From: Watersipora subatra
Taxonomy: Eukaryota > Bryozoa > Gymnolaemata > Cheilostomatida > Watersiporidae
Direction of reading: 5' to 3'
NCBI RefSeq assembly: GCF_963576615.1
Contig: NC_088711.1
Span: forward strand, 40,482,621 to 40,546,620
Length of the DNA stretch: 64,000 nucleotides
Shown piece by piece: positions 18,215 to 64,000 of this stretch (positions are counted from its first letter, which is position 1; every line of letters begins with the position of its first letter). Made by a program: the position numbers and the translations under genes. A model generated the notes under the pieces. That model saw only the letters and a program-made list of their open reading frames with translations. It was not told the origin of the DNA and did no database searches.

Positions 18215-21200
18215 CTAGACTGGATCAATTCCTGTGTAGCGTCTCAGCTGCTCAAAGACAGCAAATGTAACGATGGTATGAGGAGCAATCCTAGCCCAGA
18301 CTGGAATAAATCCCTTGTACAAGCTCATCAAGCCTTCAGTTCTGGCAGTCTTGATCAAGACATCTAGAATAGATCTGTATCGTCGTTCCTCGGCAGCTGT
18401 AAAATGTAGGATACAAATTATTAGAAAGCCAGAGGGATATCATAGGTTATTCTTTGGTTTTTGTATAGTTTATAGGTAGTATATAATTTGTATGATAGAC
18501 TAAAAGTGTATTATTTCTTTAATACAATATCTGATAACATATATAAAAATCTTGAAGAGATCTAGCACATATACACCAAATTATATTGTTACTTCACTGG
18601 AAAAACCTGTGATAAAAAGGGCCCCATTGGTTCCTGTTCTATGTAAAATACAAGTTTGATAACGCAGCAAAAACTGAGGGTGCCGTCATAAATGATATTT
18701 TGTTTTTTATGCTTGGTGGCTGTAACTACATGATAAAGACTCCTTCAATTTAATTTTTATTTTATATACATTTGCTTTATAATAATAATAATAATTTTAT
18801 TAAAATCAATCCAATCAAGTAACATTTGATATAGTGAATATTTCTGTTTTTTGAACATTTAAGATCTGAGCTAGTCGTCAGAGTTCTTTTTTTCAAACCT
18901 TTTTATAGCCCAAGTACGACATGCTGCAATGGTGTGTCTAAAATAAACCCCACAGCTTGATAATTTACTTAGAAACTAACTATGAGTCTAAAACGAGTCG
19001 TATTTAGCAGAATGTACTTTCACCTGTTTTAATTTCGCTTTGTACATTACCTTACCTGCTGGCTGGTTCATTATTCTAATACGAGCAAGATCAACAGGCG
19101 TAGTTACAATAGCGTTTACTAGTCCAGCAATCGTGGATGACACAATATGTAAAGAGACTCCTTCAGCCATTAGGTCAGCGTTTAGCAGTGTATGTTTAGT
19201 GTGATCATATGAAGCTATCTACAAATATACAGCAGTAGTACAAAACAGATAACTTTAAAATAGTTGCTTTCATGTTTAGTTTCTGACATTATTGTAAATA
19301 TAAATTATACCAGAGCAGGAACTTGACTACAATGTACTACATACCATAGACTCTGTCGTATAAGTCAAAAATTGACACCAAAACTCAAGCTGTAAAAATC
19401 CATCCTCGACTTATACAGTGTTGAAACTTTGTCATGAAATGAATTTTAGAAAAACTCAAATTCAACTACCCATTGCAAATCAAAATTACATGATATGACA
19501 TATAGGAGTTTATGTATAATTAGTAAAACACAAGTAATCCTACTCAAAACTACATGGATCAAATGCAAAGTCCCATTTTTGACCTTTTAGGCTGTCATCG
19601 CCATAGAGTTATCTCCCCCTAGAGTGATAACTGCCATCAACAACACAAGCGTTTCCGGTGCCAACAAGGAGCGTTTAGGCCACGCCCATTTTTTGTGCTA
19701 GTCACTCGCAGTGATTGACAGAACGATAACATCAGCCATGAGAATGATCATGAATTTCCACAGTTAAGATAGTAATTATTGCTCTTATTAAAGAAATGAT
19801 GATTATAGTTTATTACTTTAATATATGCTTATCATTTAAAGCGATTCAATACCTACATGCATTGCAAAGGCACTGAATAGATAGTGTTAAGTAAGTGAGT
19901 TAATGCAATCAGTTACTCCAACGATATACAGCCCCCACACATGGGGGCCTGTATATCATTAGTTACTCATAGATAAGATAGATAATCATACTGGAGTTGT
20001 ATTACATTGGTGTGATGGGAAGCTAATCGACTGCCATCAACTGAAAGTATTGACACTGTATGGTGATAGAGTGATTCATTGACACCACAGTTCACAAACA
20101 GCCCTTGCATGTAATATTAGATTTCAATACGTATCAATCAAACACATAGACTAGCTTAAAGCAAAGATGTCCACTAGTTAGTGGACATCTTTGCTTGATG
20201 TAAGCAAGCAAAATGTTTGAAAGTTAGAGTGGCAAATGTTGCTATATGTTAGATAAAAATAAATTATACCTAATTATACTAAATTGTAATTATTTAAAAA
20301 TAAAAAAGACTTTTTTACTACTTTATTTATTAAATAATTTTTTATTGTAATCATAGCTAAACAGATTATATTTAGCCATCACTTGCTAATTATTTCACAT
20401 TTACATTTAAACACATTTGCAGTTTCATTTTTCTTCCTAATTCATATCAACAAAAAACTTCTTTCATGATATGAAATTTAAAAGTTGTAGTTGTTTGAAA
20501 AAGCTTAAAAACATTTACAGTTGTTCTTATTTCCTCTCTTCTCTTCATTTATTTCCATTACACAAAACACTTCTCATAATACGTAGTTTGAAAGTTAAAG
20601 TGGCAAATGTTGTTATATGTTAAATAAAAATAAATTATAACGTACTTAATTATACTAAATTATAATTATATAAAAATAAAATAGACTCTTTTATTACCTT
20701 ATTTATTAAATAATTTTTCATTGTAATCATAGCTAAACAGATTATATTTAGCCATTACTTGCTAATTATTTTACATTTAAACACATTTACAGTTTTTTTT
20801 TCCTAATTTATTTTAACAAAACACTTCTTTCATGATATGAAATTTAAAAGTTGTAGTTGTTTAAAAAAGCTTGAAAACCGTTACAGTTGTTTTCTTTTTC
20901 CTCTTAATTCATTTGAACTGCTTAAAAATATTTTCTCATGATATGAAATTTAAAACTTAGAATGGTAAATGTTATATAAAAATAAATTTTCTGTCCAGAC
21001 TTTTTTATTACTCGGGCAACTCGGGTAGTACAGCTCATAGTTGATGGCAGTCGATTAGCTTCCCACCACACCAATGCAATACAACCTCAGTATGACTATC
21101 TATCTTATCTATGAGTAACTGATTGCATTAACTCACTTACTTAACACTATCTATTCAGTGCCTTTGCAAGTCAAGTAGATATCAGGGATTACATGTATGT

Positions 21201-24200: not shown

Positions 24201-27200
24201 TTTGCTACAGTTTTAGACGCGTGAATGCTCCTACTTGCTTTCTGTTAAAGATCGCTAATCCAAACCATTTTACATTCAACGCAACCAACTTTCAAACTGT
24301 GTATAGTACACAGTAAGTAGCTTGCCATTTTACTTCTAATTTTGCATTTCAGAGTTATAATAAACATATTTCTTTATTGTTGTTGAATTACATACATTAC
24401 AGTAGATTAGGCCTACAGCTTTATAACACTTTTATAACAGCTTTTATTTTGCTGCAGTTAGCAGAAATCTTCCAGACACGTGAACGCTCATAGGTTTTCT
24501 ATTATTGCTGTATTACTATATTAACAATATTGGTTATTTTAAAAATATTAGTGCATTTTACTTATAATATTGGCCAATATTGCATTTCTCCTATTGCAGG
24601 GGAGAAATATAAACATGTAATATTTTGCTTTCATTATTGTTGTTTGTCATGACCAAACACTTTTTAAATAAATTTTCTAAAAATCTATATAAATACCACA
24701 ACTTCTCGATATTGCTACCTATGACGTTTTGAAATGTAAACAAAATTGTGCATTGGTTTTCTATTATTACTATATTAATAACATTAATTATTCTAAGAAT
24801 ATCAGTGCATTTTACTTCTAATATTGGCCAATATTGCATTTCTCCTATTGCAGGGGGAAAATATAAACATCTTTTCCATTCATTATTGCTGTTTGTTGTA
24901 CATGTATATAATAACACCCACACCCAGTACATTACAGCTACCATTGCAGTTATCCTATTGCACTGCAGGGCCATTTGACTGCTAATATTGCATTTCTCAA
25001 CCATCAGTACCCTTTCTTTTTTTGCCAATATCTCTGGCCATCTCTTTGGTCGTGGGCTGTATGACAATGGAATTTCTAGTTACTATAATAGGAGCTGTGT
25101 CTGTTTACTCGTTCATATGCTTGTCTGTTCAAAACCATGCTAAGAGCATTAGGAAAGAAGATAGTACTGCACTGGAATTGACAGCTAACATTTAGGTCCA
25201 CGGATTCAATGCCAAGAGCACCACCACTAAACCATATTGTACATTTGTACATATAGCTTTTACTCAACATAATCTGTAATGGCGCACAGGCCTGCAAGTG
25301 TACTAATATCAACAATAATCCACTGTTTGTCACATTTAGTAATGAATCTTATCTTTTAAACAGGTTAATATAGTACAATTTAAAACAATGTTATAAGTTA
25401 CTCACAATTTACACCCTTAATTACAAGTATGTTGACAACTTACACTGAGTCACTCTTGCGATTTGCTCATGCTCTAATAAAATTAAATCTCTCACTTATG
25501 ATAATTTTTATAACTACATTTTTTATAATTACACATTCTTTCATTTAAAAAAATAACCTTGGCAGATAAAAAAACCTTATGTTTTAATTGATATGAATTC
25601 TTTCATTGTTTAACATAACAAAATTATTTGATATCGGAATTTTAAATATATGATCGAGTATATTGCACAGAGCCCACCTGCGCACAAGTTCCTAGAGTTG
25701 CTCGGAGGGTGTTTGGGCCGCAACCTGTATACAGTTCCTTTAACCCTCCGCTACGATAAATATCTCCAAAGGCAGCGAGACAACCTGAATGCCTCAGAGG
25801 AGCTCCAGTCACTTGTGCTTGAAGTCGAGTTTTCACCACATCTGTCGGAGTGACTATTGCAGCGCTTATTCCTCCTGAAGATGAGCACTTGGTGAATTGA
25901 ATAGAGAACCATAAAGCTCAATTTTTCTAGTAACAGTTTGGGTAACATGCATTAGATTGTCTCTGTCAGAATTGTATTTATTGTTGCGGAGCTCTTTTTT
26001 AAATATTGGATACGAAACGAAGTTTTTGCTTTGTGTGATCAACCAACTTGATATATAATTCACATTGGGAGGTTTTTGAAGCAACTAAAAAGAACAGACA
26101 GCATTTTAAAACTACATTTTACTATAACAATTTATAAATTAACTTTTAGATTTATTTAGATTTTTGCTTAATCTATTTTTAAATGAAAAATTTTACGAAA
26201 GCAGATCTTATGGGTTTATGGATGAGAAGGTAGTTTTTTGCAGGTAGCTCTATGTTGAACTTTTGCAAACCCTCGTCTAAAGAAATAACTTAAAACTCAT
26301 CTGCCATAAGAAGTTGACAAATGTGTTTTACATTTTCAAATTATATATTCGTAATGCAATTCAAACAATACTATGTTTGCGCATTTTCAATTATTCTATA
26401 ATGACTTGAGAATTTCTGAAGGTTTTTTTAGGACAGATATTATTTAGGGAAAAGCTGTTTGTATACATGTATTAGTGGTGTGAAGTGAATGGGAGTGTTG
26501 CAGTTTTTGGCATAATTAAAAATTATAAACAAATTGTCTGAAAGATCAGCGGTTACCATGTGAAGATTAAATGCATTATTCAATTCCTTAGAATTGCCTC
26601 CCCCTTAATATGTAATAATATGACAACTTCTGTGAATCTGATAGTAAGTGCCTACTTTGTTAGTACTCGAAACTAAAGACTAGGTTTAAAACTAAGTCTA
26701 ACAACTTACCTGCAGCCCATTTGATACAGCCTAACAACTTCCCTGCAACACATTTGATAAGGCCTAACAACTTACCTGCAGCACATTCAGTAAGGCCTAA
26801 CAACTTACCTGCAGCATATTTGATACGGCCTAACAACTTACCTACAGCACATTTGATATGGCCTAACAACTTACCTGCAGCACATCCTGCAGGAATCTTG
26901 ACCAGCAAAGATGTGTCGGACTTGTCAATTCCTCCTAACTGGTATTTGATTGGCTCATAAAACATAAACCTTAGCCCACCAAATGACATCTCTCTTACCA
27001 TTGCTGCCTTCCATCTACAGTATCAGGTTCACAAAGAAGACTGGAGGATTTAATTTAATACGATAATCATCAAAATAATGCTATGATTATGTCATAGAGT
27101 TTAAAACATATTGAGAAGTTAACTCAGTATTCTGTCACTCAAACAGCAATTACATGTAATTTGATTTCATAAGTTAATAGATTACACAAACGCAAGTCTG

Positions 27201-30200
27201 ACAATACAGTCTAGAAGTCTAAGTTAACGTGATATCTGATGACATATAACTGACTTGAGCAGAGGTAAAGTCACTAGCACTGAAACTAGACTAGCAACTG
27301 TTATTTAGGTCAAGCTATTGTCATGTCTGAAGATACTAAATCTAGATGTCTAAATGTGGATTTACACCACAAAGACTTATTGAAGTTGCTTTCACGCTGA
27401 CAAAACCAGTTTGCTGCAAAACGAAGAATGGCTTTAAAAGCGTATTTGTTCTCCGTCTGTGACACTATATGAGTACATGGCTTCATATTGTGTTTGCTTG
27501 TTTTTGATGGCTGTCATTAATGGCCTAGAACTTAAAATGTAGAATTGACCAATCGTATCTCGCAATAGCGCCGTATTTATAAGCATTATGTCGGTATATT
27601 CTGTTTCCCAAAGAATCAGCTAGTAATAGCATTAAAATCAATACATACTGAGTAACTAATTGCTGAGTTGCAGACACGATTTTTTTATCTAGAAACATAC
27701 ATTTCCAGATCATTTTTCATGAGCTTTATATTTTTGCTATTAGCAGTTACTAATTACTATAATTATAACATGTAGGCTTACAGGACATTTAGCAACAGAG
27801 TGATTTATGTTGTATTTGTGGTGCCCGATGGCCAAAATGGAATGAATATTTAGGACATCTATTGGTGTCTAGTGACTAGAGAACTGGTGACTATTTATGC
27901 AATCTATTATAATGGTGACTACAGCAGATTGTAGGTCGCTAGCGGTAAAACTGGACTAAAAATGTTATTTATTGTACCTATTTAAAAAAATGTCTCCCAC
28001 CTATGGCAGTTGCTTTAAAACCTACAAGCGAGGTATCAAGCAAATGAAGGTATATTATTTTCTATCTAACCTAGCCAATGAAAGAACAGAATAAAAACCT
28101 GGTACTGTAAAAGAACAATGGCATCAAACTTTTAAGAACATGATCATATGCCAAAAACCTTTATCAATACCTCTTCATAATAAATAAGACTAAATCTTCT
28201 CTTTATCCTTGATTTGGCTGATAGTTACTTTCTGAACCTTCTATAGAAAAAGTTGCTGCGCTATCTTTTTTTGGCTGTCTGAGAACAAAAACTCTGTAAA
28301 TTTGTTTGAGCTGAGCCAAATACCGTTTAAAGGCTCAATCTATGTTTCCTTTGTCCAAACTAAAACCAACCAAAATCTGAAGTTAAAAGTTATTAGACCT
28401 TTTAATTTGTTTACAATTCATCAGATAAATTTGACTGTTTAAAGGTACGGCCACACGTGACAATCTTATCATTGGTTCTGACTAAAATCCCAAAATGAAC
28501 GAAGAACACAAAATTGTTTGGCCAAAATTCACAGAGTGGTCGGAGTTGTGCATGCACACCGAAATTGTTTTAATTGACTTAACAAACTATTAGCGAACAT
28601 GATTCTAGCAGCTTTTGCAATTTATATAGTCCAAGACATTTATTATGACACACAATAAAAATACGAGTGCAACTCAGCATAGTACATATGATATAACTGC
28701 CTAAATTGCGCTATTGTTGGTTTGTGTCGTTCGGACAGCATGGCTACAAATAGTTTCTTTTTTAATAATAACTTTTTTTTAGCAGCAAAAGTGCCATTGT
28801 AAAAAGAGCTGCCATCTTTGGCACAATCAAGTCAGTTGCATCGTACTTACTATGGCAAATCGGGTAAGTATTTTTCTTGTGTGTCACGTTATGTGTCTTG
28901 GACTATATAAATTGCAAAAGCTGCTAGAATTGTGCTCGCTAATAATTTGTTTAGCCAATCAAAAGTGTTTCACCAACAATTTCGGTGTGGGTGCACGGCT
29001 CTGACAATTCTATGAATTTCAGTCAAATAATCTCGTGTTTTCCATTCATTTCGTGATTTTGGTCAGAACCAACGATAAAATCGTCACACGTGGTCATGCC
29101 TTGAGACTGCTGGTAAGTGTAGCCAGCATTCGATCTCTGTTCAAAACAGCATCCTCAAAGGTACTGCAAGTTTTTCCTACTCACCCTTTCCATATGGCCA
29201 TGAAACCTTCCTCTAGTACCAGAGTTCTCACCCCTCTAAACATGCCTTTGTACTTTCTGGGTGCTTCAGAATCAGATGTAAGTTCATTGTCCAGCTGTAG
29301 TCTGACTTTTATGACATCGATAGGGTGGGCAACTGCAGCAACACACTTGATATACTGTTTCTACTTTGGAGTTGCCCCAAGGGTTCGATCTATGTTAATT
29401 CACAAAAATTAGTAAAATCTTTAATGGGGTACCATGCATAAATGGCAGGAGTCATTTACATATACAATATATACATTTACATTTACATATACATTTACAT
29501 TTACATTTACATATACAATACATTTACATGTACAATATATACATTTACATTTACATATACATTTACATATACAATACATTTACATGTACATGTACATGTA
29601 CATGTACATGTACATGTACATTTTCATGTACATGTACATGTACATGTACATTTTCATGTATATGTATGAGTTACTCAGTTCAGCTGAGAGTAGCTTATCG
29701 CTGCTACAAAACACTTTGAATTGAAGACGAGTCACAGCTGATAAGCCTTATGAGTCATCCTGCACAGTCTTTATAAATCCTGCCTAAACTATGCCCATAT
29801 TATCTGTGTTTACCCTTCCCCACACATGACAAACACCATCTTCTACTTTGAGGTACTAAATTACTAGATTGACCATCGAATGTTTCAGTTTATAAATTTT
29901 CTGCTATTACAACTTGCAATTCACATTCCAGTCTTCTCAGCAATAAATGTAGTCTTAGATTACCAGCTTTACCAGCTAAAACTAGTTGGCTAATAATAAA
30001 AGTTGGTTTAATAATTTGTCTTTTTGGCGTGTAATGAAAGCATTTTGTTGATGATTACTAATGGCGATAAAAGGTTATATATGATACAAACATGTTATTA
30101 GCAGCACTAATAGAAGGTCCACCCATTGAGCAGTGGTGGTGCTTGCAATGCAACTTCAACTTGTGAGCAGGCCAATATATATTAATCAATATGCAAAAGG

Positions 30201-34191: not shown

Positions 34192-37136
34192 ATGGAGACA
34201 AATGGAGACATTGGTATGGACAATGGATGTGTAAGTAAATATTGTTGTTTCCTAATAACCTTTACCAGTTGGAACCATACATATAAGGAAAAAATGTTTA
34301 ACATGTTTGTTAAGACTATAAATTTTTTAAATATAAAGCAATGCTCTATGTTTAATCCCTTACAAAATTTAATCAGATTTCTAAATTTAAAGATTTTTAA
34401 AGTAATTAGGGTATGTAAAAAAGATCTATTGCACTGTTACTCAAATAGATTTAGGAATGAAAGATGAGAATACAATTGTTTGCAGCTTTTAGTGAGTTTT
34501 ACACATTAGTTACATTTTTATTGCGCTATTTATTTTTGTGAAACTTGTAGCTCAGTTTCTACTGTTATAAGTTAGTGTAAAATATACTTTATAATGTTAG
34601 ACATTGATTTGTTAATAAGTAAAAGTTACTGATTGATAAGTTATAAATTGTTGAACTAAGAATTGACTAGTTTATGTAAGAAGACTAGCAGAGTTCAGTA
34701 GAAAATTAATTAAATCACAAAAAGGCCATTGCTGGTGTTGGCACAACTAATAATCCACTTGTGCTGTTGACAAAACTTACACGAGGCGATGCCTGATTGA
34801 AATTTTTGATGGAACTCTTTTCTTGAACTTTGTTAATTAATATGAGTTAAAGAGGATACAGCTTCCAAACTCAAACAGTTTTTTCTTTCTCTGTAACCTA
34901 CACGGTAAGTATAATTTATTTGCTATTCTCAACCATCTGAATCAGAACCGATTATTGTCTTTGTAGGAACTGAACCAGCAGCTTCATGAGTTTACATCGA
35001 CTATCAGAGGTGTTGGCACAATTCATCCTAGATTCTCGTCTCCCCTTTTTTACCATTCCTGTGCTGTAGCCTCGATCTATTCAGAAAAAGAGATCAAAGT
35101 CAAACTATTCCTTGTACCTACCGTCATATACAATCCCTATACAGATGAGTGTGAGTCACATTTACCCAACGAAAACATCTTACCAATCAATCAGAGAGGT
35201 CACATGACTGGCAGCATTGCTGTTAGTTTGGTAAAGTCAGATATTGGTCAATTTAACTGGACTTCAGCTAGTTCTGTTCTAAGAGTAAGTTATTATATTG
35301 TAATTATCATAAAACATCTAGTTTAATGCCAACTTCATTTTATTGCCACCTCTAATAGAATGGCACCATAGAAAAACGGTTTAAAATACAGCCTCTCTTT
35401 TTAATTGAAAGCCACCTCTAATTTTTGCCACATTGACATGCTTCGATCTTTACGAACCCGCAATAGAAAGTGATTAGTAGAAAAGTATTTACAAATGGTA
35501 CTAATAGTGACATCAATAAACATTAGAGCGTTTGTTGTTGCTGTACGAGTTGCCATGATTTTAGTGACAACGTACCTGAGGAGATTGATCGACAATTAGA
35601 ACTACACACTAAAACAAAGTCACTAAAATATTTAAGTTTGGAACAACTGGAGCCATTGAAGCAATTAACAACTGTAACTTGCTAATACTTTATAATCGAA
35701 ATAGTTTATTTTTAATTTGGTTTAATACTTGGAAGTATATGAAAAACAGTTTAGCTAATATGCTGAGGCTGTCGTCATTAATGTCAATCTGCTCAAAGGA
35801 GACTGCAAATATAAGCTAGATTAGCATCACTGCCCGTAAAAGAGTGAAATGTATTTTCTAATAATTTTAAATGAACTAGTTAAAAAATTCAGTGCTTCTC
35901 TTTATTTGAATGTTACTTTTAATACAATGAGCATAAAGAGTAATGATTGAAAAATAGAGCATAATTGGCGTTCAAATAGAGGTTTTACAGTATGTATTAA
36001 TCAAAGGCTGTTAGAGATGGTCAGAGATTAAATTAGGATAAAGATGAATGTTATTCAATATCAGGTAACTTATAATGGTAGGTAGGTGATAGATTAACAG
36101 CAGTGAGCTCTGTTATACTATCCTAGTCTTTATGCTTCTTCTAGCATCACCTTGACTTTCTTCCGAAAATCTATTTTCAACACTGTCAACCAGTGTTAGA
36201 TTTGCCTGAAGATGTATTGCCTCTTGTTGTAATATGTAATACATCTGGGTTTATTTATATTATTTTTTCCATTTCAGGCAGTTGAAAATCTTAGCACTAT
36301 ACATTTAGAAAAGCCACCAGAAATTAAATACGCCTATGTAAGTTGTGATCATTCATTTTAGACTTGTTTAATTTTTTCAGACCTGTTATGTATAAAATAT
36401 TCTAAATGCTTGCATATGTTTAATCAGAGTCATTCATTCTTTGGATAAAGTGCTATTAATCAAGCTGTTGCCATGTTGATATCTTACATGAGAGATTTTA
36501 ACTTAGACTGGGTTAGAAATGTATTGAAAAATGTGTATATTTCAAACTGAGATTGCGCTATATTATAAGTTAATGGTTACAACTCTAACCCCAAATCTAA
36601 TCGTAAAACAGCTATAATTGACATTTTCATTAACTGAAACAGAGGTGGTCACTATAAAGAGTATGGGTATGCTATTAATAGTTTGAAGAATGTAGGCCTG
36701 TCGTTAATAGTTAAATACTATAAAAGGGAGTGCATATTAAATCACACATATCTAGTCAGGAAGCCACAACTCTTAACTTTAAGCAACAATTTTTATGGAT
36801 AAATGAACCTATCATCGGTTGGTGTAATTAAATATTTGCCAATTTTATTTATAATTACAGACAACAAGAAAGTCAAACGAATCATCCACTAGAGCTGCTG
36901 GTGACAAGTGTACTTCCACAACAATTTTAGAGAACTGGTACGAAGAGAACTTTACAGCTCCATACCCAACATCATCTGAATTATCATACCTGGTAAAAGC
37001 CACTGGCTGGCCGGCTAAAAAAATAAGCAAATGGTTATGCAACAGACGATATCGTGATAAGAACACTCGTCATCTTGGCAACGTTGTGGCCATTAGGCAA
37101 CAGCAAAAATTCGAGGCTAAAAAACTTGTGGACTAG
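34192..37136 (+). CDS. Divergent homeodomain protein, four exons, 230 aa
   Basis: Exons 34192-34230, 34967-35284, 36278-36337 and 36861-37136 all join in phase 0 with GT/AG introns (693 nt). The start METNGDIGMDNGC is short and is the least certain part. Exon 4 carries a homeodomain at about residues 142-206: helix 1 ILENWYEENF, then APYPTSSELSYLVKATGW, then recognition helix KKISKWLCNRRYRDK. The PYP between helices 1 and 2 is the TALE-class signature (SIX proteins also have DPYP). W48, N51 and R53 are kept; position 49 is Leu in place of Phe and position 50 is Cys. The N-terminal 139 residues (ELNQQLHEF to EIKYAY) match no domain I know. The product is presumably a nuclear DNA-binding regulator. 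It could belong to the lineage-specific TALE expansions of spiralians. A polyadenylation signal AATAAA lies at 37527. Confidence 0.82.
35307..35992. mobile_element. TIR element in homeobox intron 2
   Basis: The left end is about TAAAACATCTAGTTTAATGCC and the right end GGCGTTCAAATAGAGGTTTT followed by ACAGTA. The termini match those of the 1.6 kb element at 47371-48951 (TACTGTAAAACATCTAATTA). TA-ended Tc1/mariner-type termini, no transposase. Confidence 0.5.
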
Positions 37137-38287: not shown

Positions 38288-38672
38288 CTCTCCTGATGAT
38301 GAGGAAATATCCTTATTGCCTTCCCACAACAAATCATTAGTTTTAGTATCCATTATGTTTACAGTTGAACACTTTTTAGATGGTTAGACAACAGTCTATA
38401 GATTAATAGAGATTTTGACCTACTGGCACACTTTAGACAAAAAAACAGCACAGATGTTTTGAAGAGCAGAACAAATTTTTCTGCTCTCCTGATGATGAGG
38501 AAATATCCTTATTGCCTTCCCACAACAAATCATTAGTTTTAGTATCCATTATGTTTACAGTTGAACACTTTTTAGATGGTTAGACAACAGTTTATAGATT
38601 AATAGAGATTTTGATCTACTGGCACACTTTAGACAAAAAAACAGCACAGATGTTTTGAAGAGCAGAAAAATT
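38288..38672. repeat. Recent 196-bp tandem duplication
   Basis: Two nearly identical units start at 38288 and 38484 (CTCTCCTGATGATGAGGAAA) and differ by only a few bases. Related older sequence extends on both sides (37.56-39.3 kb) and resumes after the 3.8 kb element at 43.14 kb. Confidence 0.85.
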
Positions 38673-39945
38673 TTTTGACTTCGTTTCTTTTGATGTCTGA
38701 AATTTTCTGGCTGAGCGGTTTCAGACAACTTCAAGGCACTTCACGTATTCATCAAAAACCTGTCAAAGTTTGACTTGTTACGTGCTTTTTATGGAGGCTA
38801 GATTAGACCATTTTAAGGTAACAAAAAAAGACTGAACTCCCTATTTCATGCTTATCTGTGTGAACTTAAATGTAAATTTTATGTAGAAACCATTTCTAAA
38901 GTCATACATACCTGATGCTACTAAATTACAAGTTTACAATATAGGGTTTCTAATAACATGCAAATATTTTATAACACATCCAATAGTATGAATGATGCTA
39001 ATAATTATCACACGATAGAAAGTAAATTGTTTGGTTGATCGTTAAACTAAAAGTAAACACTTTATCAATAGAAAGGTACGTAAGAGCTTTTGTAATGCTG
39101 CTGCAAATCAGGTTTTATTACCATAAACAGAGTGCTAAAATGTTAACTTTTTTCAAGTCCAATAAAACAATGAAACTTTTTCACTTATACACATAACAAT
39201 AGGGTTTTTCTTAAAGAGAATTTAGAGATAACAGGGTTTGACTTTTTTTGATTAATAGAACAGGTCAATGAAAGCACAACTCTGCAAATATCAATGAGCT
39301 ATGGCGCCTTACAGTGCCTCGCCTTGCGCGTTCACAACTCGAGTTGGTCAACTCGAGTTGCACAACTCGAGTTGTGAACGCGCAACACGACTTTTCAAAA
39401 GTAAGGTGCAATATAGTGGTATTACGGTAGAATAACCGTAGATCTGGTTATATTAACAATGGTATATCAATAGGCACCCGTTAGCTAATAGAAATTAAAC
39501 TATTAGTCTGGTGGCCACAGGGCATTATCGTGTCAACAGGTGCAGAAGATGGGGTCTATGGTAACTTGACACTTTTAACATGTTTCTAATTTATTCATTA
39601 CTAATTTAGTTTCCTACCGCTATTTTAGTTGATAAGCTAAGAGTAATTTGCCATTAATGGTGAGTAGTTATACAAAAATAAATTTTTTCTTACGCCGTGT
39701 GCAGTCAGTCGGACCAGCTAATCAGAGCCGTAGACCAACATTTACCTCATGTTGTAGTACGGGGGTATTAAATTACCCCGATATCAATTAGGTTTGTTGT
39801 CAGTTTCCTGTCTCATCGAGCGACCGCCGGCGTTTGGAGTAATGATCAAAAACTTTAATTTACTAATTATACCGATTTCCAAAGCTAGCTGTCATGGATT
39901 ACATAATTCAATATAATCAACTACTACATTATATTAGATAAAAGG

Positions 39946-42726: not shown

Positions 42727-42947
42727 GTATGTACCGTAAAACTAAAGCTAATAGCGAATTATTAGAATTATACTGTGCCGAGTTTGCAACTCGAGTTGTA
42801 CAACTCGAGTTGCACAACTCGAGTTGTACAACTCGAGTTTGTAAATATAACTCGAGTTGTACAACTCGAGTTGTACAACTCGAGTTGCAAACTCGGCACA
42901 GTATAATTCTAATAATTCGCTATTAGCTCTAGTTTTACAGTACATAC
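42727..42947. mobile_element. 221-bp palindrome nested in the right TIR
   Basis: The ends are GTATGTACCGTAAAACTA and its near complement TAGTTTTACAGTACATAC. The arms continue through GCTAATAGCGAATTATTAG and TGTGCCGAGTTTGCAACTCG to a core of ACAACTCGAGTTGT repeats. The left TIR of the host element runs straight through this point (AGTCTGGTGGCCAC), so the palindrome inserted into only one arm. Confidence 0.7.
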
Positions 42948-43205
42948 AGTTTAATTTCTATTAGCTAACGGGTGCCTATTGATGTACCATTGTTAATATA
43001 ACTAGATCTACGGTTATGCTACCGTAATACCGATATATTGCACCTTACTTTTGAAAAGTCGCGTTGCGTGTTCACAACTCGAGTTGTACAACTCGAGTTG
43101 TGAACGCGCAAGGCGAGGCACTGTAAGGCGCCATAATGAGCACCTCATAGTTATGAACTAAATGTTTTGTGTTTTCCGTTAACCGGCTCTCAAAGACATG
43201 ATGTA

Positions 43206-57629: not shown

Positions 57630-60600
57630 TCCTCACCCCGGATACCCCGTATGGGTGGTAAATTCTGCTCCAACTCGGGTCTCCTACCAGAGACCTGGGA
57701 GTTTGAGCACTCGCCTTAAGATCTTAGCTGTTCCCAATAGCGCACTTTTCTGCAACTCACCTGAGTTGATTGTTGTTGGTATTTGGGCAAGCCACATTTT
57801 ATGCGCCGGCGTTATTGCGCCCAGTGCCCCAATGACTACTGGGATTACAGTTGTTCTTACATTCCAGCATTTTTCAATTTCTTTTCCAAGAGGGAGATAT
57901 TTCTCTACCTTTTCTTTTTCTTTGCTGGCTATATTGTAGTCATTGGGTACTGCTATATCTAGTATAGTAGCCCTCTTGTTCTCCTTTTCTACCACCACTA
58001 TATCTGGTTGGTTTGCTAGGACATGCTTGTCAGTTTGGATGTAGAAGTCCCAGAGGATCTTAGCGCGGTCATTTTCATTCACCTTACCAGGAGCTTCCCA
58101 CCAGTGTTGTGGTTTATTAAAGCCATACTCATCACATAAACTTCTATACACAATACCTGCGACATGATTATGCCGCTCAGTGTATGCGTTCTCTGCTAGC
58201 TGCCTGCATCCACTGATAATATGTTGGATGGTCTCAGGTGCATCTTTGCACAGTCTGCATCTAGGATCGTCTCTAGTGTGATAGATTTTCGTTTGGAGTT
58301 GCCTTGTTGGGAGCACTTGCTCCTGGGCTGCCTTGATTAGCGATTCTGTATTGGCCGTTAGGTTTCTTTTGTTCAGCCACATATATGTCTAGTGAAGATC
58401 GCCAACCTTAGATATTTGTTGGTGGTAAGCACCATGAAGAGGTTTCGTGTGCCAGTCAATTTCCTCATCATCAGGGCGTAGGTCCGTTGTAAGAGCAGCC
58501 GATTGAAATTTAGCTAGCAACTTATCTGAGATGGCCATGGAGGCTGCATATGCTTTGATGCTTTGCTCCTCCTCTTTCACTGTCTGCTGTACACTTTTGA
58601 GTCCTCTACCGCCATCTTTCCTATCAAGATACAATCTAGTAGTATTAGATTTTGGATGGAGTGCTCCATGCAAGGTCAGCAGTTTACGAGTTGCTATATC
58701 TGTTTCTTTGATGGCTTCCTCAGTCCACTTAATTATGCCTGCTGAATATCTTATTACTGGCAGTGCGTAGATATTTATTGCCATGATTTGGTTCTTGGCA
58801 TTGAGCTGGCTCCGTAAGACCTGCCGAAGGCGTTTTTTGTATTCGGTAATGGCTTTGTGACGTACCTCGGTTTCGTGGTTGATGTTGCTTTGCATAATCC
58901 CCAAGTACTTGTACCCTTCTTTTATATCTTTGATGGTACCATTTGGCATTCTTAGGCCATCTGTGAGCATAGAATGGCCTTTTTAAGAATTAGCCTTCTA
59001 CATTTCTCAATACCGAAGGTCATTCCGATGTCCTTGCTGTATACCTGAGTGAGGTGTATTAACGAATCAATGTCCCTTTCTTTATTAGCGTACAGCTTGA
59101 TGTCATCCATGTAGAAGAGGTGGTTTATCTTGGTGCCACTCTTAAACTGGTACCCATATTGAGTTTCCTCCAGTATATTGCTTAGAGGGTTTAGGCATAT
59201 GCAGAAGAGCAGCGGTGATAAGGAGTCACGTTGATAGATGCCTCGCTTAATTTTTACACTCGCCAGCTTTTTGCCATTAGCCTCCAGTTCCGTCTTCCAT
59301 TTGGTCATTGACATCTTGATGAATGCCACAAGAGCAGGATGAACATTGTACATACTGAGGCACTCAAGTATCCAACTATGGAGAATTGAGTCATAGGCCT
59401 TTTTGTAGTCAATCCAAGCCATGGCAAGATTGATTTGCCTTCTCCTGCTGTCTTGACAGACCGTCCGATCCACCAGTAACTGATGTTTAGCTCCTCGGGT
59501 GTTGCGCCCAATTCCTTTCTGAGCACTGGTCATATAGTGACTCATGTGCTCTTCCAGTTTGTCTGCAACTAATCCTGAGAGCAGTTTCCAAGTGGTGGGC
59601 AAGCACGTTATTGGTCGATAGTTTTTGGGAATCGGCCCCTGCTTTGGATCTTTTATCAGAAGTACAGTTCGTCCTTTGGCCAGCCATTCTGGATGGTCAC
59701 CTTGTTCTATTAGACATTCCATCTGCTTAGCCATTCTAGTGTGAAGTGGTGTCAATTTCTTTAACCAGAAGGCTTGAATCATGTCATGGCCAGGTGCTGC
59801 CCAGTTCTTCATACGCTGCACTCTGCACTTGATGTCCTCTTTGCTGATGGTGAGTCCTTACTGAGCCACAGTGTGTTGATGGTTCTCTTTAAGCCCCTTC
59901 AGCCAATTTGCAGTGGTGTTATGAGTAGTCTCTTTCTCCCAGATGTCCTTCCAGAACTTTGAAGTGCTAGATCGGAGAGGCTCAGACATTGGCCTCTGCA
60001 GTTCACCTTTGAACTGGGAATACACTCTAGATAGATTATTGATGAACAGTTTGTTCATTCTCTTGTTATCCCGCTCTTTGGTGTACCGCTTCAGTCGGGC
60101 CGATAGTGCTACTGGCTGCTGTTTGGCATATTCTAGAGCTTCTATTGTGGCTTCCCTTTTTGGACGCTCCAAATTGTGGTTAGATCTCTCACTGAGCCTA
60201 CTAACTTTCTTGCGCAAGTCCTTGATTTTATTTGGTAGCCTCAGCTGCCAGGATGGAATGAAGCCTTGTTGGCATTGGCTTAATATCCATCTCCTCCAAG
60301 ATGACGGTTGCTGTACTGTAGATTAAGGCATTAGTCTCACTGATTGATCCAGTTGAGATCGACTCCAGTGCCATGTTAATGTCTTCTAACAGCTTCTTAG
60401 GTATGGCCTTGCTAACTCTTCGTAGTGGTACCCTGCTTCCATAATCAATAGCAGCTGACATCTTGTTGATGACATTTTCCGCAAGCTCTCTCACCCTTGG
60501 GTCAAGGTCCAAGTGACTCGTGTTGACTCACGGGTCTTCTTCAACCCGTGAGTCAACACATGATCCTGTATGCGTGACAGTGTGTGTTGATATGCACTAC

Positions 60601-63119: not shown

Positions 63120-64000
63120 CTACTGAGTACATTTTTCATTTATGCAGCCAAGGATTGTGGCTTGAAGAAGCTGTATGTGAGGATGGTCTGGCTTTTCACA
63201 GTATATTGTGTGAAGCATATCCAGTGACTTGGTGTACCAGCCAAGCGCTTGCTCATGGTCACCTAGTGAGTAGTATACCGAACCTAAGTTGTTGTATGCT
63301 GTAGCAATAACAGTATGGTTAGTATCAGCACCATATATAGCTTCACGCATATTCAATGACTTGGTGTAATATTCTAGTGCTTGTCCATAGTCACCTAGTG
63401 AGTTGTATACTGAACCTAGGTTGTTGTATGATTTAGCAATATTAATATGGTTAGTATCAGCACCATATATGGCTCTATGCATATCCATTGACTTGTTGTG
63501 ATATTCTAGTGCTTTTCCATAGTCACCTAGTGAGTAGTATACTAAACCTATGTTGTTGTATGCTGTAACAATATCAGTATGGTTAGTCTCAGCACCATAC
63601 ATAGCTTTCAACATATCCAATGATTTGGTGTAATATTCTAGTGCTTGTCCATAGTCACTTAGTAAATTGTATACTGAACCTATGTTGTTGTATACTGTAA
63701 CAATACCAGTATGGTTAGTCTCAGCACCATACATAGCTTTCAACATATCCAATGACTTGGTGTGATATTGTAGTGCTTTTCCATAGTCACCTAGTAAGTT
63801 GTATACTGCACCAAGGTTATTGCAGTCTAAAGCAAGATCAGGATGTCCATTTTCACCATACATGTTTTGGTCCATCTTGAATGCTTTTGTATGATATTGA
63901 AATGCCTTGTCGTATTCACTCAGACCAAAGTACACAGAACCACTGTTTTTGTATGCCTCTGATGTATCTCTGTTGTTGCCATCAGTCTCCTTGAACAAGT
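63120..64000 (-). CDS. Tandem TPR-repeat protein, C-terminal part
   Basis: An open frame of about 293 codons runs from the window edge to a stop at 63120-63122. It is made of six to seven 44-residue units of the type AYNNIGSVYYSLGDYGKALE followed by YYTKSLDMLKAMYGAETNH, the TPR_12/kinesin-light-chain style of tetratricopeptide repeat (two antiparallel helices, protein-binding). There is no ATG at the visible 5' edge, so the protein continues upstream outside the window. It ends LLQATILGCINEKCTQ after the last repeat decays. The units are very alike, also at DNA level, indicating recent duplication or homogenisation. The role is probably that of a scaffold or adaptor; the N-terminal domain that would identify it is not in view. 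Confidence 0.9.
   Translation of the reverse strand, partial: LFKETDGNNRDTSEAYKNSGSVYFGLSEYDKAFQYHTKAFKMDQNMYGENGHPDLALDCNNLGAVYNLLGDYGKALQYHTKSLDMLKAMYGAETNHTGIVTVYNNIGSVYNLLSDYGQALEYYTKSLDMLKAMYGAETNHTDIVTAYNNIGLVYYSLGDYGKALEYHNKSMDMHRAIYGADTNHINIAKSYNNLGSVYNSLGDYGQALEYYTKSLNMREAIYGADTNHTVIATAYNNLGSVYYSLGDHEQALGWYTKSLDMLHTIYCEKPDHPHIQLLQATILGCINEKCTQ

Follow-up and report, generated by a model that had tools for sequence, protein, structure and literature searches.

A minisatellite where exon 3 meets intron 3 in a Watersipora subatra mitochondrial carrier gene: likeness to lancelet mirages

Introduction

Minisatellite-like tandem repeats that extend across exon-intron boundaries have been described in lancelets under the name of mirages. 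The cited sections report them from the Adh3 gene and the globin genes BflGb6 and BflGb9 (PMC3087553) and, in a further study, from TnC and PGBD5 (PMC3902484). Repeat units measure 10-72 bp in Adh3 and 150-160 bp in the globin genes, and their copy number is stated there to vary between haplotypes (PMC3087553). Though many copies carry AG/GT, Adh3 data and RT-PCR of the globins suggest, in the same sections, that regular splicing is undisturbed (PMC3087553). In the cited part of the second report, the Adh and TnC mirages are stated to give rise to no aberrant mRNAs, and the same is inferred for the similar repeats of PGBD5 (PMC3902484). Tandem duplication of AGGT has separately been presented as a way to gain introns; the part of that work cited here includes one potato case that crosses an intron-exon boundary (PMC4974935).

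Here we describe an array of comparable anatomy in a gene for a mitochondrial carrier of the bryozoan Watersipora subatra. The gene lies within a 64,000-nucleotide stretch of the genome assembly, C4:40482621-40546620, referred to below as the window. Positions are those of the window unless preceded by a label of the type C3, and a slash within a sequence marks a splice junction or the border between repeat units.

Results

The gene that carries the array belongs to the SLC25 family, as a sequence-only reading of the window had claimed. Joined exons 2-6 (Table 1) contain three Mito_carr repeats (PF00153) and score 213.6 bits; the Px[DE]xx[KR] motifs of the carrier are PIDVIK, PTDVVK and PVDLAR. 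When joined exons 2-4 were aligned to the PDB, the best solved relatives by sequence were UCP2 and UCP1. Exon 3 lies between the acceptor TGTAG/ATGG and the donor CAG/GTAAGT, while the donor of exon 4 is the weaker-looking GTGGGC. Exon 1 did not turn up when the minus strand was scanned for motifs. Judged by its exons, the UCP-like gene is apparently intact. That the locus might be a pseudogene is unsupported, exons 2-6 being open and carrying the three Mito_carr repeats.

Table 1. Positions of the carrier exons, the minisatellite, its donors and three boundary arrays elsewhere in the genome.
Feature	Position	Strand	Description	Evidence
Exon 2	29185-29332	-	PIDVIK signature of H1	
Exon 3	26875-27014	-	140 nt, ends ...ATTCCTGCAGGATGTGCTGCAG; H2 and first part of H3 (..LLVKIPAGCAAG)	Mito_carr match, PDB alignments
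Exon 4	25678-25874	-	GISAAIVTPTDVVK.. of H3, matrix helix, H4; acceptor CTTCAG/GAGGAATA	
Exon 5	19056-19218	-	YDHTK and PVDLAR of H5	
Exon 6	18218-18396	-	last helix, stop TAG	
Minisatellite (mirage)	26698-26885	-	unit: last 11 nt of exon 3 and 22 intron nt	
Donor 1, exon-proximal	26869-26885, first intronic base 26874	-	ATGTGCTGCAG/GTAAGT, zero insert	UCP1/UCP2 alignment, paralogue introns
Extra donor 2	26841-26842	-	TAG/GTAAGT, +11 residues if used	
Extra donor 3	26808-26809	-	CAG/GTAAGT, +22 residues if used	
Extra donor 4	26775-26776	-	CAG/GTAAGT, +33 residues if used	
Dead donor 5	26742-26743	-	CAG/GGAAGT, +44 unavailable	
Extra donor 6	26709-26710	-	CAG/GTAAGT, +55 residues if used	
L103	C3:11088280-11088990	-	mit_SMPDase exon	Pfam E = 2.4e-9 (above cut-off)
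L087	C3:33122945-33123720 (C3:33123645)	+	IQGAP-like exon, 32-bp boundary array	
L076	C3:73275150-73276050		array of donors with 33-bp period, in frame and open, immediately preceded by a serine-rich exon-like open stretch	

At the end of exon 3, Tandem Repeats Finder detects a minisatellite with a 33-bp unit (5.7 copies, 87% matches, score 292), which it gives twice, with periods of 33 and of 99. Self-similarity at a lag of 33 starts at 26885, 11 nt inside the exon, and fades near 26697; the repeat unit therefore consists of 11 exonic nt (ATGTGCTGCAG) and 22 intronic nt. The array thus has the anatomy of a mirage: a unit that spans an exon-intron boundary, present in 5.7 copies. The sequence-only reading had traced the repeat to duplication of the boundary itself, and this agrees with what was found, except that the shared exon part measures 11 nt and not just the seven noted there.

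On the minus strand, the boundary occurs in six copies of the form xAG/G(T or G)AAGT at exact 33-bp spacing and in one phase, five of them with GTAAGT and the one at 26742 with GGAAGT; the six copies, their spacing, the common phase and the five GTAAGT had been read from the sequence before. The last exonic bases are 26875, 26842, 26809, 26776, 26743 and 26710, and the first intronic bases 26874, 26841, 26808, 26775, 26742 and 26709 (minus strand); all but 26743 among the former had already been put forward as candidate junctions. The frame of exon 3 is open across the entire array and closes at a stop at 26660 (open frame of 120 aa), which bears out the earlier description of the units as free of stops. 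Given the open frame and the 33-bp period, each unit represents 11 codons and leaves the intron phase unchanged; the predicted insert sizes of 0, 11, 22, 33 and 55 residues agree with the five intact donors. In a DNA search of the 783.7-Mb genome (one assembly), the array was found at this single place. A chance origin of the repeat itself can be excluded. Its being in frame and open, on the other hand, is not remarkable: the prior for an in-frame period is 1/3 and 44% of random 33-mers at the base composition of the window are free of stops, which makes the frame property less striking.

Three paralogues from this genome, at C4:34.63 Mb, C4:15.44 Mb and C8:20.76 Mb, have an intron at the same codon, for the same glycine and in the same phase. 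Each boundary has a single donor (AAAISG/GTAAAT, AGALAG/GTAACA and AGATSG/GTAGAT, respectively), and Tandem Repeats Finder found no array at the matching boundary in any of the three, only unrelated repeats elsewhere in the loci. Since intron position and phase are shared, the first donor, with its last exon base at 26875, is the old one. The authentic boundary is retained beside the copies: the donor at 26874 fits both the paralogue intron and the gap-free junction with UCP1/UCP2. Among the 14 own-genome protein matches listed, none is a close intronless copy in which a junction would be preserved; two are long and intronless, with identities of 24 and 28%.

The junction of exons 3 and 4 reads AGCAAG/GISAAIVTPTDVVK, the codon for the last G of AGCAAG being split by the intron. 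It falls at the last glycine of this small-residue motif, eight residues ahead of PTDVVK, and without insert it aligns gap-free there with helix 3 of UCP1 and UCP2. The junction is inside transmembrane helix 3, flanked by the small-residue motif on one side and the proline-kink motif on the other. An insert had been assigned by the sequence-only reading to the loop between helices 2 and 3. That assignment has to be given up and, because the junction sits inside H3, the argument that a loop could tolerate the extra residues fails. An 11-residue insert would amount to about three helical turns; the helical phase might be kept, in a helix about 16 angstroms longer. The Mito_carr score of 213.6 bits without insert becomes 204.2 with 11 added residues and 205.9 with 55, a drop that is mere gap cost and says little on function.

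Relative to their consensus, the five inter-donor units show 12 differences, of which 10 are non-synonymous, 2 synonymous and none a stop (expected shares for random changes: 64%, 31% and 4.5%). The 9-nt donor is struck by 2 of the 12 (27% expected, P = 0.32), and one of these two kills it. No protein-level or donor-level constraint was thus detected among these five units. Only 1 of 11 distinct differences affects the first 14 intronic positions (P = 0.02, for a block chosen after the fact); this could mean some constraint, a weak hint on which we place no weight. Overall, the unit peptides do not appear to be conserved, nor the donors protected, which leans against a selected generator of isoforms.

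Arrays of donor-like words were sought throughout the genome with patterns of three donor consensus words in a row, using one reversed word per pattern as the control (matches are given for the two strands). With CAGGTAAGT, 196+252 matches were found at periods of 18-48 bp versus 23+51 for the reversed word, and 67+90 versus 23+8 at 29-36 bp. At periods of 28-34 bp, the numbers were 49+125 versus 1+0 for AGGTAAGTT, 29+159 versus 1+12 for AGGTAAGTG, 114+108 versus 1+8 for AGGTAAGTA and 22+216 versus 23+0 for AGGTAAGTC; all 100 matches listed for the last word belong to one large 28-bp array. Whichever of the four bases came next, the array matches of the 5' splice consensus AGGTAAGT exceed those of the reversed words; with C, a single large array accounts for most of them. 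As a single word, AGGTAAGTT, the only one checked in this way, occurs 16,593 times versus 9,506 for its reversed form, so that its excess in arrays is not explained by single-copy frequency alone. Array matches overlap: for AGGTAAGTT, the 100 of 174 matches listed correspond to 16 places by hand count; the control figures are likewise counts of matches, not of places. An origin of the arrays from exon ends does not follow from these counts alone, and most donor-word arrays lie away from any recognisable exon end.

For 43 other arrays, hand-picked among the matches listed for CAGGTAAGT, AGGTAAGTT, AGGTAAGTG and AGGTAAGTA, the 5' flanks were all scored and inspected by eye. This set leaves aside others on the lists, including the ends of the C1:3.48-Mb array, C2:33708301, C3:1962214, C3:13330342, C3:45974546, C3:45203899, C3:51876984 and C7:33955045, as well as additional arrays of the C1:55.2-55.8 Mb group; in L072, L098 and L102 the examined stretch shows no flanking sequence beyond the array. 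The flanks were rated with a crude exon score that combines codon usage (trained on 1,284 codons) with the acceptor. Scores of at least 10 were obtained for 2 of the 43 flanks (L076 and L087) versus 0.75% of 2000 random window places, and scores of at least 5 for 4 of the 43 versus 2.25%. One of these four, L075, resembles by eye a tRNA-derived repeat. The score is insensitive: the verified exon of L103 gives -1.7.

At least two further boundary arrays, L103 and L087, have independent support (Table 1). In L103, the end of the mit_SMPDase exon is repeated: 20 of its last 21 nt recur in the copy that follows, and donors are placed at 33, 33 and 30 bp, in frame and open, the repeat peptides being LSCALNKK/VSKLSCALNKK/VSKFCCAFNKE/VSKFCALEEK. 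We take the exon peptide of L087 to be IQGAP; RasGAP_C, the C-terminal family of IQGAP, has a match on that strand 17 kb downstream, the only one found. The frame of L087 closes within the first 32-bp unit and, given this period, its copies cannot be frame-preserving isoform switches. Eight more candidates are plausible by eye, namely L018 (34 bp), L073 (31), L076 (33), L085 (30), L086 (34), L089 (32), L095 (29) and L106 (15). Hence three of eleven boundary arrays (carrier, mit_SMPDase and IQGAP-like) are backed by a family match or gene context and eight by visual inspection. Periods divisible by 3, which might have been favoured, account for 5 of the 11 (carrier array, 33 bp; mit_SMPDase, 33/33/30; L076, 33; L085, 30; L106, 15; versus 29, 31, 32, 32, 34 and 34 bp), with no clear departure from 1/3.

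Eleven peptides were scanned against Pfam: those of seven candidate boundary exons and of the near-boundary exon L088, followed by L103, a longer frame of L085, and L093. One match lay above the family cut-off (mit_SMPDase in L103) and two were weak and sub-threshold (DUF434 for L076, CP2 for L088). The other eight peptides, including the short one of the IQGAP-like L087, gave no Pfam match; nor did two forms of the L018 peptide. In the PDB, nothing was found for the peptides of L018, L087, L089, L086 and L103, and only weak, chance-like matches for that of L085.

Other features of the window were recorded in passing. The segment at 29333-29352, just ahead of exon 2 of the carrier gene (TATCAAGTGTGTTGCTGCAG), is like the terminal part of the repeat unit (TATCAAATGTGCTGCAG); the likeness may be due to chance. 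A self-complementary 14-mer, ACAACTCGAGTTGT, occurs in arrays at 42779-42895, 43074-43101 and 39333-39374; the first of these blocks lies between inverted copies of TTATTAGAATTATACTGTGCCGAGTTTGCAA, in the manner of a palindromic mobile element. A 196-bp tandem duplication at 38288-38675 is recent, given its 98% matches. A Homeobox_KN/homeodomain exon is found at 36855-37136 (plus strand, E 6.4e-10). On the minus strand, several open frames at 57687-60322, one of them with RVT_1 at 58955-59857 (E 5.6e-24), apparently represent a fragmented retroelement, and a TPR-repeat protein with a nearly regular 132-bp DNA repeat occupies 63123-63998.

Discussion

We consider it likely that the array is a minisatellite of the mirage type, that is, a selectively silent duplication of an exon-intron boundary in a gene spliced mainly at the first donor. 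A 33-bp segment over the exon 3/intron 3 boundary would have undergone tandem duplication, slippage or unequal exchange being the probable mechanism, and the resulting array occupies the 5' end of intron 3. The donors of the copies would be near-perfect because they are recent copies of one donor. Splicing would most likely occur mainly at the exon-proximal donor (last exon base 26875) and yield a normal carrier, copies 2-6 leaving with the intron. Leaky splicing at the other donors probably occurs to some extent; it would introduce 11, 22, 33 or 55 residues into helix 3, where an insertion should damage, not diversify, the carrier. We infer both the choice of donor and the neutrality of the array. 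Several points run counter to this interpretation. The copies are strong donors (three CAG/GTAAGT and one TAG/GTAAGT besides the first), and their silence is therefore not guaranteed; the array is in frame and open, as is that of mit_SMPDase (33/33/30 bp); the scarcity of differences in the first 14 intronic positions could mean some constraint; and the human IFI6 minisatellite, taken up below, is a further point.

In an alternative reading, the spliceosome chooses among the five donors, so that the carrier gains 0, 11, 22, 33 or 55 residues, and changes in copy number generate isoforms that matter. All units are in frame, in one phase and open, the mit_SMPDase array is in frame too (with one unit 3 bp shorter), and a minisatellite of the human gene IFI6 (6-16, G1P3) is said, by the title of Turri et al. 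1995, to provide multiple splice donor sites. However, the insert would lie inside helix 3 rather than in a loop, the unit peptides do not seem conserved nor the donors protected, periods of 29, 31, 32 and 34 bp occur beside 15, 30 and 33 among the boundary arrays and candidates of this genome, and the IQGAP-like array breaks the frame. We therefore regard such a role as unlikely. We also give little chance to its extension to a whole population of mirages in this genome, in which 5' splice sites would repeatedly seed minisatellites, many genes would contain series of consensus donors, and those arrays whose period is a multiple of 3 (here and in the mit_SMPDase gene) would act as in-frame isoform switches tunable by copy number.

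It seems conceivable, if improbable, that a row of U1-binding sites lying 3' of the true donor increases occupancy by U1, thereby strengthening the definition of exon 3 or guarding against loss of one donor. The strong donor matches in five copies and the weaker-looking GTGGGC after exon 4 would suit this function, but three paralogues manage with a single GTAAAT, GTAACA or GTAGAT at the same place. Four of the five inter-donor units have the form GTAAGT...AG, the fifth starting with GGAAGT, and the passages cited present AGGT tandem duplication as a route to introns (PMC4974935, PMC3087553). The array could then be a stage in the gain of introns or exons by Rogers-type AGGT duplication, stretches of several units being later spliced out as introns or kept as coding sequence. 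Against this, inspection by eye reveals no evident pyrimidine tract ahead of the AGs of the units, and no derived intron was seen; we hold this course of events to be very improbable.

Read as a silent boundary duplication, the array offers a clear case of the mirage type in a well-understood protein family, in which the effects on isoforms are predictable. It provides a natural system in which to examine how the spliceosome selects one of several near-identical donors spaced by 33 nt, and whether minisatellites are preferentially seeded at 5' splice sites. Other boundary arrays are found at conserved genes of this genome; one of them keeps the frame, the other does not.

Among the known systems, that of IFI6, with a unit of reportedly 12 nt and isoforms reportedly longer by 4 or 8 residues, differs in that the use of several donors is claimed there. 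Intron gain from AGGT, as set out in the cited part of that work, is likewise a tandem duplication that copies splice signals, but no new intron is seen in the carrier gene. With respect to the lancelet mirages as characterised in the sections cited, the differences concern the gene and the genome, the length of the unit (150-160 bp in the globins, 33 bp here) and the fact that all six boundaries of the present array, known from the DNA of one assembly, are in one phase and open. The likeness concerns the structure itself: in both, short head-to-tail repeats take in an exon segment, the boundary and an intron segment, and carry AG/GT in many of their copies.
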